Assembly: GCF_037076555.1 (NCBI RefSeq)
Contig: NZ_AP029023.1
Location: 62,001 to 126,000 of the forward strand
Length of the DNA stretch: 64,000 bases
DNA from: Methylophilus sp. DW102
Lineage (GTDB): Bacteria; Pseudomonadota; Gammaproteobacteria; Burkholderiales; Methylophilaceae
Direction of reading: 5' to 3'
The notes under the pieces: model-generated
Database searches by the model: none
Told to the model about the DNA's origin: nothing
The model's input: the letters and a program-made list of their open reading frames with translations, nothing else
Part shown: positions 8,698-29,635 of the stretch, piece by piece
Layout of the letters: each line of letters opens with the position of its first letter
How positions within the stretch are numbered: the stretch's first letter is position 1
Made by a program: the position numbers and the translations under genes

Positions 8698-10023
8698 CTA
8701 TGCGGTGAGCAGGTCGATTTCCGGCAGGTCCCGCGCTTGCAGCTCGAGGCCTGCCGCTAACAGGGCCAGTCTTGCGACCACGCCATAGGCATAGAAGCGG
8801 TTGGGGGGCGCGTCGGGGGCGCCGGCACAGTCGGGCAGGGTACAGGGTTTTTCAAACGCGAGCGGGGCAAAGTGCATGCCGGGCGCATTCAGGTTTTCAT
8901 CGACGCCACGGCCGGTGTGCACACGGTAAAAACCGCCAATCACAAAGTGATCCATCATATACACCACTGGCTCGGCTACCGCGTCATTGATGCTTTCAAA
9001 GGTATAAACGCCTTCCTGGATCATCACTTCAGACACTTGCATGCCTTCTTTGATCACCGACATTTTGTTACGCGCCTTGCGATTGAGGTCGCGTACCTCG
9101 TCGGCCGATTTCACGCTCATGATGCCCATGCCATAGGTACCGGCATCGGCTTTGACAATCGCAAACGGTGGCTGCGAGATGCCATATTCGTCGTATTTAG
9201 CCTGCGTTTTTTTCAGGATGGCTTCGACCTTATCGGCCAGCAGGTCTTCACCTACCCGGGCGTGAAAGTCCAGGCCGCTGGCGGTATCAAAGTAAGGATT
9301 TAACAACCAGGGGTCAATCTGCAGCAATTGCGAGAATTCATCGACGACAGTGTTATACGCGCTAAAGTGCTGTGACTTGCGTCGGCTGAACCAGCCTGCA
9401 TGTAACGGTGGAATCAGGGTTTGCTCCAGGCCTTGCAGCAGGTCGGGCACGCCACCGGACAAATCGTTATTGAGCAGAATGGCACAGCTGTCAAAGGCAG
9501 GGTATTCCACGCCTTCAAACGTTGCCGCCTTCAGTTGCAGGCGGTTGTTTACGCGCACCAGCGGTTCCAGTACCAGCGGCAAGCCATCATGGGTTTCTAG
9601 TTTGGTGATCTCGGTAATCTCTGGCGACAAGCTGCCGACACGGACTTCCATGCCGGCGGTTTTGAGAATGTGACAGAGCTCAACCACATTACGCAGGTAG
9701 TACGTGTTGCGGGTATGGTTTTCGGGGATCAGTAGTAAACGGCGCGCATCTGGGCAGATTTTCTCGACCGCCATTTGTGCGGCTTGCACAGCCAGGCTCA
9801 AAAATTCGGGATTCAGGTTATTAAAACCGCCTGGAAACAGGTTGGTATCCACCGGGGCAATCTTGAAGCCGGCATTGCGCAGGTCCACGCTGGCATAAAA
9901 CGGGGCGGGAATCTCCTGCCATTTGGTGCGGAACCAGTGCTCAATATCCGGCATGGCTTGCAAAACGCGTTTTTCCAGTGTGTAGAGAGGGCCGCTTAAA
10001 GCCGTGGTTAAGTGTGGAACCAT
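8698..10023 (-). CDS. gshA: Glutamate-cysteine ligase, proteobacterial GshA family
   Basis: A 441-residue protein of the glutamate-cysteine ligase family common in betaproteobacteria, unrelated in sequence to the E. coli enzyme. It makes gamma-glutamylcysteine for gshB. The segments D-T-N-L-F-P-G-G-F-N-N-L, V-K-A-D-A-G-T-Y-G-M-G-I-M and F-Y-R-V-H-T are family hallmarks. I chose the ATG at 10023 (M-V-P-H-L) because AGGAG sits at the right distance before it. A longer frame from 10053 has no such site. The gshA-gshB pair is compact. Confidence 0.92.
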   Translation of the reverse strand: MVPHLTTALSGPLYTLEKRVLQAMPDIEHWFRTKWQEIPAPFYASVDLRNAGFKIAPVDTNLFPGGFNNLNPEFLSLAVQAAQMAVEKICPDARRLLLIPENHTRNTYYLRNVVELCHILKTAGMEVRVGSLSPEITEITKLETHDGLPLVLEPLVRVNNRLQLKAATFEGVEYPAFDSCAILLNNDLSGGVPDLLQGLEQTLIPPLHAGWFSRRKSQHFSAYNTVVDEFSQLLQIDPWLLNPYFDTASGLDFHARVGEDLLADKVEAILKKTQAKYDEYGISQPPFAIVKADAGTYGMGIMSVKSADEVRDLNRKARNKMSVIKEGMQVSEVMIQEGVYTFESINDAVAEPVVYMMDHFVIGGFYRVHTGRGVDENLNAPGMHFAPLAFEKPCTLPDCAGAPDAPPNRFYAYGVVARLALLAAGLELQARDLPEIDLLTA

Positions 10024-10081
10024 GGTTGCTCCTGTGCTTGTTATTTTATTCACCGGTTATCCGGCACTGCTGATGCAATGA

Positions 10082-11062
10082 TTAGGCGATGACCGCATGC
10101 GCCTGCTGGTCGGCATGATAACTGCTGCGCACCATGGGCCCGCTGGCCGCATTGTCAAAGCCCATGGCATCGGCTTGTTGTTTAAACCATTCAAAACGCT
10201 CTGGCGTGACATATCTCAACACCGGCAAGTGATGGACGCTGGGTTGCAAGTATTGCCCCAGGGTAAGCATGCTGACACCATGTGCGCGCAAGTCACGCAT
10301 CACCTCTAAAATTTCTTCATCCGTTTCACCCAGGCCCAGCATCAAGCCAGATTTGGTCGGCACTGTTGGGTACAGTTCACCAAACTGTTTGAGCAAATCC
10401 AGCGAATGCTGGTAGTCAGAACCAGGGCGCGCCTGTTTATACAAACGCGGCACCGTTTCCAGGTTATGGTTCATGACGTCTGGCGGTGCTTCACGCAGAA
10501 TTTTGAGCGAGATATCGAGGCGGCCCCTAAAATCTGGCACCAGGATTTCAATTTTAATGGCGGGGGATTGGGCGCGTATGGCGCGGATGCAGTCGACAAA
10601 ATGCTGCGCGCCACCGTCAGGCAAATCATCGCGGTCTACTGAGGTGACGACTACATAGCGCAGTTTCATCTGTGCGATGGTGCGGGCGAGGTTTTCTGGC
10701 TCATTCGGATCAGGCGGCAAGGGTTTGCCATGTGCCACATCACAAAACGGGCAACGGCGGGTACAGATATCGCCCAGAATCATAAAAGTGGCTGTGCCGC
10801 CACTAAAGCATTCGCCAATATTAGGGCAGCTGGCTTCTTCACAGACGGTATGCAAATTGTTGTCGCGCAGGACTTGCTTGATTTCCTGGAACCGTGCCGA
10901 ATCCGGCACTTTCATGCGTATCCATTCGGGCTTGCGCAGCATGGGTTGCGGCACGATCTTGATCGGGATACGCGAGGTTTTTGCTGCGTCGATTTCTTTC
11001 ACGCCAGCTACTTTCTTGGCCGGGCGGGCGCTTGCATCTATTGGGGTCGAATTATCTGACAT
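10082..11062 (-). CDS. lipA: Lipoyl synthase
   Basis: A 326-residue radical SAM enzyme that inserts two sulfurs into octanoyl groups on lipoyl domains. Cys74, Cys79 and Cys85 (C-x4-C-x5-C) bind the auxiliary cluster that is sacrificed as sulfur donor, and Cys100, Cys104 and Cys107 (C-T-R-R-C-P-F-C) bind the radical SAM 4Fe-4S cluster. The C-terminal R-S-S-Y-H-A-D motif supplies the Ser ligand. The start overlaps the end of lipB by 11 bp, so the two steps of lipoate synthesis are translationally linked. Confidence 0.97.
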
Positions 11063-26387: not shown

Positions 26388-28043
26388 ATGCCAGACAATC
26401 TGCACACCAGTATCGTCAGGGATTTTCGGCAAACCTTGCTGTGGCCCGTGCAATTGATGACTGATCATCTTGTCCCCGGCGCCGTAGATGCGCCCTGGGA
26501 AACGCTCAAGGCCATCAAGGATTCGCCCTGGGTAGAAATTGAGGATGATTTTTTACACAGCGCCCCGCATTTAAGTGAAACGCGCTATCAAGAGTTCGTC
26601 ACCTTTATGCCTTTTGCCCAGCGTTTTTTATATGGCGAGGGCAAGCATGGCCATGCGGCTGGCGGCTATGGCGAATCGCCACTGCATATTTTTAGTCGTC
26701 AGGATATCCGTGCCGTCCGTATCACCTTGCCGGAGCATGCGACCCCGCTTACTTTGCGCGTTGCGCATATCGAGCTGTATTTCTTTTTTGATATTGATGT
26801 TGCCATGCTGGCGCTTGAAGTCACTGCCAGCGATCTCGCGCTCAATGACGCCATGGAAATCCTCTACCGTCTGGGCCGAACCTATCCCAATTACTGGGAT
26901 GATACCGGCGAGGGCGGGCATTGCGCAAAACGGGTGGAGTGGCTGGATCAGCACGATCAGGTCATTGCTGCCTCTGATTATGAAGACAAGGCCCGCTACC
27001 TGGCCTTTGTGAAAGAGAATCACGTCCCTTGTGTCTCATTGCACTGGTCAGCACTGATGTCACCGCTCGTACAACATTACTCCGGCCAGTCTGGCGAGTT
27101 GCGTTACCGTGAAATTGAATATCAGCGCATGCCCTTGATGGCTTATCTGGCGTTTGATGACGTGAGCACCCTGTCGCGCGGAGACTTGATCCGGCTGGGC
27201 CTGGTTTGCCAGCCTTGGCATTCAGATACCTTGCCGTTTAGTGAACAGTTTTTGCAAGACTTTGAGCAACAGCATTGCTATGACCGCTACTGGGATGAGG
27301 TCCGCCAAGACCCCTGGAGCACCACGCGCATAATGTGTACCGGCCAGAATTTTGTCGTGGTAGGCAGTCATCAGCACCGCGTGTTCAGCAATGACAAAAA
27401 CGGCATCAAGCGCCATTACCAAAACCAGTATTTTCTATTGTTCTTAATCGCCCATTTTCAAAAAGCGGCCTTGCTGATGCTGTCAGACCGCATGGTGCAA
27501 GCCATCAGCCGCCTGAATATGCAGAGTGAGGACTCGGTCAAATCTTTCCGCAACAATATCCGGCATGTCACGGCCGTGTTTCTGCGCTTTACACACCGCT
27601 ACTGGTTTGAAAATGTGTCTGATCAGGCCGTCGCCAAAGACCTGTTTGCCTTGATGCTCAAGCAACTGGATTCGGTCAGCCTGTTTGAGAAAACTCGCCG
27701 CCGCATTATGGATATGGCCGAATATCTGGAAGGCGAAGAAATCAAGCGGCAGGCGGATACGGTCGTCCGCCTTACCGTGGTCACTATTCTGGGCCTCATC
27801 GGCACCATGACCAGTGGCTTGCTGGGCATGAATTTAATCGACCTGACCCAAACCAGTCTGCTGGAGAAGCTGGCATATTTTGGTATCGTCTTTGTGCCTG
27901 TCAGCCTGCTTACTTTTTATACTGTGATTAAATCGCGTCGGCTGTCATTGTTTCTGGATGCGCTTTCTAATGAGAGCACAGGCATGCGCTATAAATTATC
28001 AAAACTGGCCCGTGTATGGAGCGGTCAATTAGAGGACCGTTAG
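26388..28043 (+). CDS. Large CorA-like (2-TM-GxN) membrane protein, function unknown
   Basis: A 551-residue protein with a long soluble N-terminal part (about 1-460) and two C-terminal membrane helices (about 464-483 and 496-515). The first helix ends in S-G-L-L-G-M-N-L-I, and G-M-N at the end of the first of two C-terminal helices is the signature of CorA-type divalent-cation channels. The N-terminal region is much longer than in ordinary CorA (which is about 320 residues in total) and is rich in acidic and aromatic residues. The helical stretch before the membrane (about 380-460) would form the stalk. Magnesium or another divalent cation may be the substrate, but the large domain is unexplained. 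Confidence 0.7.
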   Translation: MPDNLHTSIVRDFRQTLLWPVQLMTDHLVPGAVDAPWETLKAIKDSPWVEIEDDFLHSAPHLSETRYQEFVTFMPFAQRFLYGEGKHGHAAGGYGESPLHIFSRQDIRAVRITLPEHATPLTLRVAHIELYFFFDIDVAMLALEVTASDLALNDAMEILYRLGRTYPNYWDDTGEGGHCAKRVEWLDQHDQVIAASDYEDKARYLAFVKENHVPCVSLHWSALMSPLVQHYSGQSGELRYREIEYQRMPLMAYLAFDDVSTLSRGDLIRLGLVCQPWHSDTLPFSEQFLQDFEQQHCYDRYWDEVRQDPWSTTRIMCTGQNFVVVGSHQHRVFSNDKNGIKRHYQNQYFLLFLIAHFQKAALLMLSDRMVQAISRLNMQSEDSVKSFRNNIRHVTAVFLRFTHRYWFENVSDQAVAKDLFALMLKQLDSVSLFEKTRRRIMDMAEYLEGEEIKRQADTVVRLTVVTILGLIGTMTSGLLGMNLIDLTQTSLLEKLAYFGIVFVPVSLLTFYTVIKSRRLSLFLDALSNESTGMRYKLSKLARVWSGQLEDR

Positions 28044-28153: not shown

Positions 28154-28669
28154 ATGAGACGCAGACTCTATTTTGTTTTACCCAATCTTCACAGTGCTCA
28201 GGCCGTGATGAATGAATTACTGCTTGATCGCATTGATGAAAATCACATCCATTTTCATGCCCGGCATGAACATTTGCTAGAGCAATTACCAAAAGCCGGT
28301 GCCGTAGAAAAATCCGATGTTCTTTATAGTGCGATGGCCGGGTTTGTCTTTGGCGCAATCGTTGGCTTGTTAAGCGGCTTACTCGCCTGCTTTTTCCCAT
28401 GGTGGTTTGGCGAAGTTGCTTTCACCGTGATTCCTTATTGCATGGTCATTGGAGCACTTGCCTGTGCTGCGTGGGCAGCGGCCATCGCGACTGCGGCGCC
28501 CGGGTATCGCTTGCGTGCCCACAGTCAACAGCTGGAGCAAGGCAATATCCTCATGGTTGTATCCGTCCCATTGCGCAGGTTACGCGAGATCAGGCAGCGC
28601 CTGATGCTACGCCATCCTGAAGCCTTGTATGGCGGTGTTTGGCCCGCCGAGCATCGCTTTTTTCCTTGA
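28154..28669 (+). CDS. Stress-type membrane protein (DUF1269-like)
   Basis: A 171-residue protein with an N-terminal soluble part beginning R-R-R-L-Y-F-V-L-P-N-L-H-S-A, two membrane helices (about 58-83 and 88-114), and a basic C-terminal tail. This layout resembles small proteins annotated as DUF1269 or general-stress membrane proteins. A His-rich patch (H-I-H-F-H-A-R-H-E-H, about 33-42) lies before the helices. AGGAG precedes the ATG and is partly covered by an inverted repeat. The function is unknown. Confidence 0.65.
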   Translation: MRRRLYFVLPNLHSAQAVMNELLLDRIDENHIHFHARHEHLLEQLPKAGAVEKSDVLYSAMAGFVFGAIVGLLSGLLACFFPWWFGEVAFTVIPYCMVIGALACAAWAAAIATAAPGYRLRAHSQQLEQGNILMVVSVPLRRLREIRQRLMLRHPEALYGGVWPAEHRFFP

Positions 28670-28773
28670 GCATACCTCTGGTTTGCTGGCATTCACCTGG
28701 CGAGCAATCTCAGCGCATTGTTTGGCTAGGCACTTACTTTCAATAGCCATCTAAATAATGATGTATGCCGTTA

Positions 28774-28783
28774 GGTATATACC
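28774..28783. promoter_or_regulatory. Short palindrome upstream of the K-R peptide genes
   Basis: GGTATATACC is a perfect 10-bp palindrome about 118 bp upstream of the first K-R-motif peptide gene. It may be an operator. The rest of the 28670-28901 gap is AT-rich and holds no convincing gene. Confidence 0.3.
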
Positions 28784-28901
28784 AAACTACGTATATCGAG
28801 AGATTATTTCTTGTCTGCTGGCTGGCAAAATGCAAACCATCGTGATTGAGCAAACATGTAAACGAGAAGACATGAATCACATTAACCGTATAAGGAGACA
28901 C

Positions 28902-29168
28902 ATGATGCGTAAATTTATTTCTGTGGGTTTTATGGTTTCAAGTTTGTTCGTGGCCTCAACGGCCGTGGCATTTGAAGGTGAGAAAAATATTCAACAAACC
29001 GCGCATACACAGCATTTTTTAAGCAAACGGCATTATGCCACACCTGCCGTGGTGGCTAGCGCAGCGGCTGATCAAGCCTGGGTAGGTGCGACTTTGGTTG
29101 TAAATCCTGCATCCGCACAAGCGCAGCAAGTGATGAAAATGCATCAATTGTCCAAACGTGCGTTTTAG
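28902..29168 (+). CDS. Secreted K-R-motif peptide precursor A
   Basis: An 88-residue protein with AAGGAG before the ATG and a signal peptide (residues 1-23, cleavage after A-V-A). The mature part carries two copies of a motif, H-F-L-S-K-R-H-Y (38-45) and H-Q-L-S-K-R-A-F (81-88, exactly at the C-terminus). Trp60 sits between them in D-Q-A-W-V-G-A-T. The next gene encodes a paralogue with the same architecture, so the motif is under selection. Paired basic residues within short repeats resemble processed peptide precursors, but no protease or exporter is adjacent. I do not recognise the family. Confidence 0.7.
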   Translation: MMRKFISVGFMVSSLFVASTAVAFEGEKNIQQTAHTQHFLSKRHYATPAVVASAAADQAWVGATLVVNPASAQAQQVMKMHQLSKRAF

Positions 29169-29206
29169 TCAGGTAGTTGTCAGGTAACTATGCCACCATA
29201 AACCTG

Positions 29207-29227
29207 ACCGTTACTCACCCTAACGGT
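29207..29227. promoter_or_regulatory. Hairpin between the two K-R peptide genes
   Basis: ACCGTTA-CTCACCC-TAACGGT has perfect 7-bp arms. It lies 38 bp upstream of the second peptide gene and may affect expression or mRNA stability. A second, looser repeat GTCAGGT/ACCTGAC (about 29179-29208) overlaps its left edge. Confidence 0.45.
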
Positions 29228-29265
29228 AAAAACTATTAAAGAATGAGCGATTTAAGGAGCGTAAA

Positions 29266-29553
29266 ATGAGTAAATTGTTATTAGCAGTACTGGTAACATT
29301 TGGCTTCATGGCGAATGTTCAAGCAGGCGATACCTCTGACGCTGAGAGTGGTGTACACAATCTGCATCAGAACCACTTCCTCGGCAAGCGGCCTTACAGT
29401 AAAGCCCCGCAGGCAAAACAGCAAAGCCCAGAAGATAAATGGGAAGGCACAGGCTTGATCACAGATAACCCGGATAAAGGCCTGGACAAGCACCAGCAAA
29501 TGCGCCTGAACTTTATTGGCAAGCGCCCTTACATGGGCTCACCGGCAGACTGA
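29266..29553 (+). CDS. Secreted K-R-motif peptide precursor B
   Basis: A 95-residue protein with a strong AAGGAG site and a signal peptide (residues 1-20, cleavage after V-Q-A). Two motif copies, H-F-L-G-K-R-P-Y (37-44) and N-F-I-G-K-R-P-Y (82-89), are 45 residues apart, against 43 in the paralogue. Trp59 is shared in position. The linker is hydrophilic and charged (K-A-P-Q-A-K-Q-Q-S-P-E-D-K), unlike the Ala/Val-rich linker of the paralogue, so the motif copies and the W-x-G-x-G/T block are what is conserved. The function is unknown, and periplasmic or extracellular location is predicted. Confidence 0.72.
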   Translation: MSKLLLAVLVTFGFMANVQAGDTSDAESGVHNLHQNHFLGKRPYSKAPQAKQQSPEDKWEGTGLITDNPDKGLDKHQQMRLNFIGKRPYMGSPAD

Positions 29554-29591: not shown

Positions 29592-29635
29592 CAACAAAAA
29601 CCCTTCATGTGATCCATGGAGGGTTTTGTTTTTGA
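29592..29635. terminator. Intrinsic terminator, probably bidirectional
   Basis: AACAAAAACCCTTCATG and CATGGAGGGTTTTGTTTTT pair almost perfectly around TGATC, with T residues to the right and A residues to the left. It lies between the K-R peptide gene and the convergent yaeQ. Confidence 0.85.

Follow-up and report, generated by a model that had tools for sequence, protein, structure and literature searches.

Why would a methylotrophic bacterium encode, side by side, two small secreted proteins that each carry two copies of the same octamer? The question is raised by a locus in the window, i.e. the whole stretch of 64,000 nucleotides of Methylophilus sp. DW102 that was analysed here. The products, termed KRPY peptides, are judged from their sequences to represent an undescribed family of short, exported and probably unfolded peptides; the reality of this exported-peptide family and its membership in a regulon are well supported, and the jobs considered for it are putative.

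The gene pair in the window

Both open reading frames of the preliminary description, of 88 and 95 aa, are present on the plus strand, as are all features of the pair listed here, and a recount of the residues reproduced the octamer copies, their spacing and the tryptophans W60 and W59. KRPY peptide A (28902..29168; 88 aa if counted from 28902) consists of a signal peptide, a first motif copy HFLSKRHY (29013..29036, residues 38-45), a central conserved block WVGATL (29079..29096, residues 60-65) and a second motif copy HQLSKRAF (29142..29165, residues 81-88), which forms the C-terminus. KRPY peptide B (29266..29553, 95 aa) likewise has a signal peptide, followed by HFLGKRPY (29374..29397, residues 37-44), the central block WEGTGL (29440..29457, residues 59-64), NFIGKRPY (29509..29532, residues 82-89) and a tail of six residues. 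Since close relatives start with M-R-[KN] and a ribosome-binding site, AAGGAG, is located at 28892..28897, translation of peptide A probably starts at 28905 (87 aa). The histidine in SKRHY of peptide A is absent from genome G060 of the same species, which reads SKRPY. A hairpin search identified a terminator-like hairpin of 13 pairs, followed by GTTTTT, 3' of both genes (29597..29627), which is weak if taken alone, as one hairpin was found and shuffled sequences gave a mean of 1.0.

Two genes between thiC and the KRPY pair (26388-28043 and 28154-28669) code for proteins of 551 aa and 171 aa that look like membrane proteins on inspection and gave no match in a Pfam search. The 551-aa gene and the downstream YaeQ, TetR and efflux genes flank unlinked KRPY genes in several genomes of the same genus.

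Distribution of the KRPY family

A profile search across the taxonomic family had been proposed in the preliminary description. When run with profile A1, it revealed homologues with conserved motif copies in 41 genomes, out of 187 examined from the window's family (7 of 24 genera), with at most seven matches per genome. Six KRPY genes are present in the genome of strain DW102, namely the pair in the window, another A-B pair close to cys genes (C1:1172339-1172973), and single genes at 1185893 and 1189546. A wider profile retrieved 278 protein clusters at E ≤0.01 among 5.8 billion proteins; among the 120 best of these, the clusters named by organism belong to Methylophilus, Methylotenera or unplaced Pseudomonadota bins. 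No convincing relatives were detected outside the taxonomic family in samples of the order, class and phylum (399, 369 and 398 genomes; the samples overlap and include some family members). Since at most the best 13 candidates per genome were scored, remote relatives in these samples may have been missed. Partial matches in genomes G335, G898 and G1275, with E values of 8e-4 to 7e-3, are located inside ORFs of 270, 547 and 404 aa and were not counted.

That no described bacterial family has this layout, as initially surmised, is borne out in the databases and literature searched. Neither Pfam (best score 18.1 of 40 bits, HC2) nor NCBIfam (best score 11.6 of 44 bits) gave a match above the cut-off, and the PDB contained none at E values up to 1. 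The peptides and the regulator described below are not mentioned in the available portions of the papers searched, which include PMC3728764, PMC8399692 and PMC13144422, subscription papers lying mostly outside this scope.

Conserved blocks, export and predicted structure

An alignment of 208 distinct family sequences, in which denominators are the rows with a letter in the respective column, defines the layout as a signal peptide followed by [FL]-[SG]-[KQ]-R-P-Y, [WF]-[EV]-G-[AT] and R-[LM]-[NH]-x-[LI]-[GS]-[KR]-R-[PA]-[YF]. Two motif copies, spaced by 40-56 residues, occur in 192 of the 208 sequences, and in 97 of the 208 the second motif is the C-terminus. In the first motif, R is invariant (207/207), P and Y are found in 180/207 and 194/207 sequences, and K is kept in 172/205, with Q in 27 and R in 6. 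The second motif contains K (164/205) or R (31/205), followed by R (197/203), P (171/203) and Y or F (193/202). The tryptophan noted earlier midway between the copies extends to a central block, with [WF] in 203/206, G in 201/205 and A or T in 205/205 sequences. Throughout the alignment the linkers diverge at a far higher rate than the motif, in agreement with what had been proposed for the pair, and because of these near-invariant columns in 208 distinct sequences, recurrence of the motif in the window can be regarded as far beyond chance.

The K-R core had invited comparison with processed peptide precursors. Precursors cut at a dibasic site to release short peptides would fit the presence of KR in most motif copies, as well as the gene of a trypsin-like peptidase with TPR repeats (L048:4555-5559, cluster c11; Pfam assignment from one member), whose cluster is present at 16 loci of the regulator and which, in many loci, is convergent to the receiver gene. 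However, these are mainly Methylotenera-type loci, and the cluster is not seen near Methylophilus-type loci such as L008, L041, L043-L046, L071, L072, L074, L076 and L077. The lysine of the first motif is replaced by Q in 27/205 sequences, some members read SSRPY, and the 68-aa relatives encoded in the slot of the KRPY genes by genomes G108 and G110, which were missed by profile A1, have FLGSRPY as their sole motif. The residue after K-R, moreover, is mostly P, and trypsin-like enzymes cleave an R-P bond poorly. Judging from the alignment, R-P-Y is the core of the motif; with Q frequently in the place of K, and S-R-P-Y in one subfamily, there is no support for dibasic processing as a feature of the family, and we consider the precursor reading very unlikely.

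By a rough rule, 205 of 207 sequences look exported, with leaders resembling ordinary signal peptides; the first impression of paralogous secreted peptides with a repeated motif proved real, and export is probable given these leaders. Cysteine is present in 11 of 208 sequences, and the net charge is slightly positive, with a mean of +0.9 (207 sequences). An AlphaFold2 model of peptide B is of low confidence (mean pLDDT 60.4, pTM 0.18) and mostly coil, with helix only at 3-18 and 75-82; the model suggests that the mature peptides, of about 60-75 residues, are probably unfolded. Three short blocks that stay nearly unchanged amid free linkers suggest specific binding rather than bulk properties. 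It is possible that a KRPY peptide is a ligand for a receptor, as had also been raised; support for this lies outside the pair, in a regulator, a kinase and a promoter element.

The regulator locus

Regulator loci, 31 in number, were examined for their neighbours on the basis of mechanically called ORFs. In the arrangement that dominates among them, one to three KRPY genes are divergent from a gene coding for a GAF-LuxR protein, which is normally followed by genes for a CHASE3-HisKA-HATPase-REC kinase and a lone receiver (domains assigned by Pfam in strain DW102). According to Pfam, the GAF-LuxR protein has a GerE domain and no receiver domain. A kinase of >600 aa is encoded at 28 of the 31 loci, its presence being judged as a neighbour of the regulator only. 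Loci L049 and L061 are truncated by the end of a contig, and at L055 (genome G180) the CHASE3 kinase gene is missing between regulator and receiver (L055:5552-5590), with the peptides, the element described below and the regulator present.

A profile of the GAF part of the regulator matched 42 of the same 187 genomes. Peptide and regulator occur together in 40 genomes and are both absent from 144. The peptide alone was found in one genome, G076 (80% complete, 390 contigs), and the regulator alone in two, G108 and G110, both of which carry the one-motif KRPY relative. Fisher's test gave p = 3e-37 for this association, a significance inflated by the fact that the test ignores ancestry. Inside the genera g18 and g19, peptide and regulator are patchy in the same way; the two are kept or lost together, nearly all or none. 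In genome G104 (L058:9653-9853 and 9970-10377), the regulator and one KRPY gene both look broken.

The KRPY box, a common promoter element

Upstream of KRPY genes, both linked and unlinked, a shared stretch of about 88 bp is located. Profile R1 of this 88-bp-type promoter/operator element, termed the KRPY box and a putative site of the regulator, was built from 34 upstream regions including that of the window pair, and has the pattern TATGCC-N5-GTATATACC-N4-TACGTATAT...GAGATT...CAAAATGC; 19 of the 88 columns are invariant across the 34 loci. The window site is located at 28762..28846 on the plus strand (G000:C1:90762-90846; E value of 4.2e-19 in the whole genome). Eighty genomes were scanned, among them 37 of the 144 system-free ones. 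All 43 genomes that carry peptide or regulator contain strong sites (E ≤6.2e-11; 58 in total), and none of the 37 system-free genomes does, the best E value there being 0.005. The 58 sites include the 34 training sites, which came from 28 of the 43 system genomes; 15 supplied none, and the upstream regions of several of these 15 had been inspected beforehand.

Directly downstream of 55 of the 58 strong sites a KRPY gene is located; an automatic check gave 53/57, and G060:C1:442358 was assigned from peptide positions and G043:C13 from an ORF overlapping the element (L063). The sites G041:C25 and G075:C15 are followed by the gene of a SulP transporter instead of a peptide gene, and G079:C150 runs up to the edge of its contig. 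In G043 (L063:9556-9921), the element runs into the KRPY frame and the leader region is apparently lost, so this unlinked KRPY copy may be dead. Strain DW102 has three strong sites, upstream of the window pair, of the second pair and of the SulP operon, all of them before KRPY genes; the next best match has an E value of 0.0175. Two of these three element-driven units encode peptides only.

The element contains TACCTAT, which matches the NarL-type heptamer TACYYMT; at this position the copy in the window has TACGTAT. On the simplest reading of the sequences, the GAF-LuxR protein is the putative binder of the KRPY box. A structured RNA leader was considered and rejected, since Rfam gave no match at E values up to 1 and none of five predicted pairs was compensatory.

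The element is missing upstream of the KRPY gene G062:C4 and of seven out of seven K3-type KRPY genes (L008:2393-2650, L041:12465-12815, L044:10470-10799, L045:7244-7525, L072:15722-16051, L074:12767-13027 and L142:5074-5343). The K3-type genes are found near the lone receiver gene, several of them between the receiver and a cluster of PepSY, OmpR-type regulator and second kinase genes, and a different upstream pattern, TTCAA[GA]CTGAA-like, is common to most of them. Lack of the element together with this other pattern suggests that a second system may control some of the KRPY peptides.

A function as bacteriocin or antagonistic peptide would be in line with products that are small, exported and multi-copy, with divergent paralogues. 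Yet 55 of the 58 strong element sites drive KRPY genes, the signal peptides look ordinary (205/207), and no immunity partner or dedicated exporter was recognised in the neighbourhoods inspected; we therefore regard antagonism as hardly probable at all. The KRPY peptides could instead be a terminal output, i.e. unfolded peptides of the envelope that are made under carbon or pH stress and act structurally or protectively, with no signalling involved. Element-driven units that contain peptides only, several copies per genome (up to seven matches), the low-confidence, mostly coil model and the mean net charge of +0.9 are all consistent with this. It is possible, if unlikely, as the three near-unchanged short blocks suggest specific binding.

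Genes of inorganic-carbon uptake adjoining the regulator

A SulP gene is the next gene on the same strand at 26 of 30 evaluable regulator loci (L072, which is cut, was left out), and a beta-carbonic anhydrase gene comes after it at 25, L061 ending first; L049, L055, L056 and L060 lack this arrangement. In strain DW102, the two proteins were assigned by Pfam to PF00916 and PF00484, and their genes are adjacent on one strand, at a site other than the window unit. This SulP protein scored 129.7 of 880 bits with the NCBIfam model of BicA, far under the cut-off. Additional loci in which a KRPY gene adjoins SulP are L136, L137, L140, L146, L148, L149, L150 (from the same genome as L058) and L151, and in L139 and L141 SulP is located beside the regulator with no KRPY gene between them. 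In L050 and L059, the carbonic anhydrase gene is followed, on the same strand, by members of the DabA and DabB clusters, the assignment of DabA to PF10070 coming from L060 only, where the Dab genes are convergent. In G082 (L056:9647-11050) and G089 (L049:7552-8955), both small genomes, a PhoX-like gene replaces SulP and carbonic anhydrase after the KRPY genes; its Pfam match, for the L056 member only, is below the cut-off.

As far as the accessible parts of these papers go, SulP and carbonic anhydrase are a proposed bicarbonate-uptake pair (PMC6458275, PMC11423575), the beta-CA3/SulP pair of M. capsulatus being one instance (PMC11423575); can2-sulP transcripts of A. ferrooxidans drop with rising CO2 (PMC6458275), and Felce and Saier (2004) is the reference given for bicarbonate-uptake operons of SulP and beta-carbonic anhydrase. 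KRPY loci resemble such operons in having the PF00916 transporter and the PF00484 carbonic anhydrase side by side, but here exported peptides precede them, a GAF-LuxR/CHASE3 module adjoins, and KRPY peptides are also encoded in transporter-free units. A role in sulfur starvation, prompted by the cys genes near the second KRPY pair, was dropped because it is SulP and carbonic anhydrase that recur next to the genes of the dominant locus, and because other unlinked pairs are located elsewhere.

SulP is nearly as tightly linked to the system as the regulator: in 78 of the 144 system-free genomes, all KRPY-free, a close orthologue (65-74% identity) was found in three, and any SulP match at an E value of 1e-60 in 15, 12 of which were only 34-40% identical. 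The three genomes with the orthologue, G070, G113 and G045, are all incomplete (at most 88%), and no KRPY or regulator gene was found in the 3.1-4.5 kb around their SulP genes, two of these stretches being cut by contig ends. Genome G082 (one contig, 99% complete) carries KRPY peptide, regulator and kinase and has no SulP match at an E value of 1e-10 with a query that matched other genomes. Among 30 genomes (4 of 34 were dropped as they had no usable SulP sequence), the distances between peptides track those between kinases and between regulators (r of 0.81-0.87) better than those between SulP proteins (0.64), and with outliers removed the gap narrows, to 0.79 for SulP versus 0.85-0.91 for the other parts (GAF 0.86, HTH 0.85). 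Co-evolution specific to the CHASE3 domain was rejected, as the partial r given the kinase core was 0.17 over the full 30 genomes; in the Methylophilus-type and no-outlier subsets it reached 0.74 (12 genomes) and 0.60 (24 genomes), and in a third subset (18 genomes) 0.16.

The peptides could be accessories of inorganic-carbon uptake that bind SulP or another part of the envelope and tune its activity. Such a role would account for the position of SulP and carbonic anhydrase at 26 and 25 of the loci, for the Dab genes next in L050 and L059, and for peptides next to what is, in the available text of PMC6458275, a proposed bicarbonate-uptake pair. In contrast, G082 combines peptide, regulator and kinase without a SulP match, the operon partner in G082 and G089 is PhoX-like instead, two of the three element-driven units of strain DW102 are peptide-only, and the SulP distances are those tracked least well by the peptides. 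An accessory role is unlikely, though possible.

A proposed peptide circuit

The shared element, the co-occurrence with the regulator and the neighbouring SulP and carbonic anhydrase genes mark the window pair as a probable unit, unlinked to the regulator, of a peptide regulon with ties to inorganic-carbon uptake. It is very likely, as far as sequence comparison can tell, that the GAF-LuxR protein binds the element, that its regulon includes the window pair as an unlinked member, and that the cue is inorganic-carbon supply or a linked one, e.g. pH. These methylotrophs would, as the data suggest, keep a dedicated inorganic-carbon regulon whose most constant product is exported peptides, not the transporter.

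The best explanation overall combines this regulon membership with feedback of the peptides on the CHASE3 kinase, and its chance of being right is put at somewhat below even. Under this proposal, the GAF-LuxR protein would bind the KRPY box upstream of the peptide units, and the regulon would respond to the supply of inorganic carbon or to an associated cue, e.g. pH. The mature peptides of about 60-75 residues, exported by their signal peptides, would be linear-motif ligands in the periplasm or outside the cell. Through their R-P-Y, W-E-G-A and R-L-N-x-L-G-K-R-P-Y blocks they would exert feedback on the CHASE3 sensor kinase of the same module, and the circuit would then match its output, bicarbonate uptake included, to how much peptide is exported. 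The kinase feedback, taken by itself, is more tentative again. It is favoured because the peptides are the chief genes of the element, occur without SulP, and track the distances of kinase and regulator; G180 with no kinase in place, the CHASE3 signal that is not robust, the narrowing of the SulP gap and the receiver-less regulator count against it. A peptide-signalling version, in which the CHASE3 domain of the hybrid kinase would detect released, unfolded KRPY peptides and these would thereby control a GAF-LuxR switch with the peptides themselves and inorganic-carbon uptake as its chief targets, appears doubtful, slightly more so than the accessory and terminal-output readings; acquisition of CO2 or bicarbonate would then be collective, and unlinked units such as the window pair would serve as amplifiers or variant signals.

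Gram-positive bacteria have peptide autoinducer circuits of the agr and Com type, which are similar to the proposed feedback circuit in that an exported peptide gene is the apparent main target of a co-occurring kinase-regulator system, known here from its sequence, that the sensor kinase is encoded alongside the regulator (at 28 of 31 loci, and not beside the window pair), and that peptide and regulator are present or absent together (both in 40, neither in 144, of 187 genomes). Unlike them, the KRPY system resides in a Gram-negative host, its peptides have two motifs and are candidate ligands, and its regulator is devoid of a receiver domain; KRPY leaders look ordinary, and no exporter was recognised among the conserved neighbours. 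CpxP, a folded protein, is a periplasmic accessory regulator of a sensor kinase. By analogy, a KRPY peptide, likewise small and exported, could be strongly controlled by the system and in turn influence its sensor, but no relation to PDB or Pfam entries was found for it, and its model is mostly coil and of low confidence.

Since the peptide family is tied nearly all-or-none to the regulator and a DNA element, its function can be addressed with few mutants, and a hidden signalling or uptake circuit in some methanol-eating bacteria becomes testable. If the peptides are signals, a peptide circuit would be added to a group known mainly for small-molecule signalling.

Related regulator-kinase triads outside the family

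Weak relatives of the regulator were found outside the taxonomic family in genomes G191, G193 and G241 of an order-level sample of 300 genomes, the order being Burkholderiales in GTDB. Profile R1 does not match these loci at E values up to 5, and no ORF of at least 100 aa in the 19 kb around them matched SulP or carbonic anhydrase of strain DW102, in which respect they differ from KRPY loci. As in the KRPY system, a related kinase and a receiver adjoin the regulator, and a small secreted-looking protein is encoded divergently (L143:10176-10712; L144:8791-9324, minus strand; L145:10342-10947). This protein, of 177-201 aa, is unlike KRPY peptides; one of the three is NTF2-like by Pfam (CaMKII_AD/DUF4440, PF08332), the other two by resemblance. 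The intergenic regions of all three genomes contain the stretch TATGCC[AG][AT]TCG, a pattern chosen post hoc, which is like the left end of the KRPY box.
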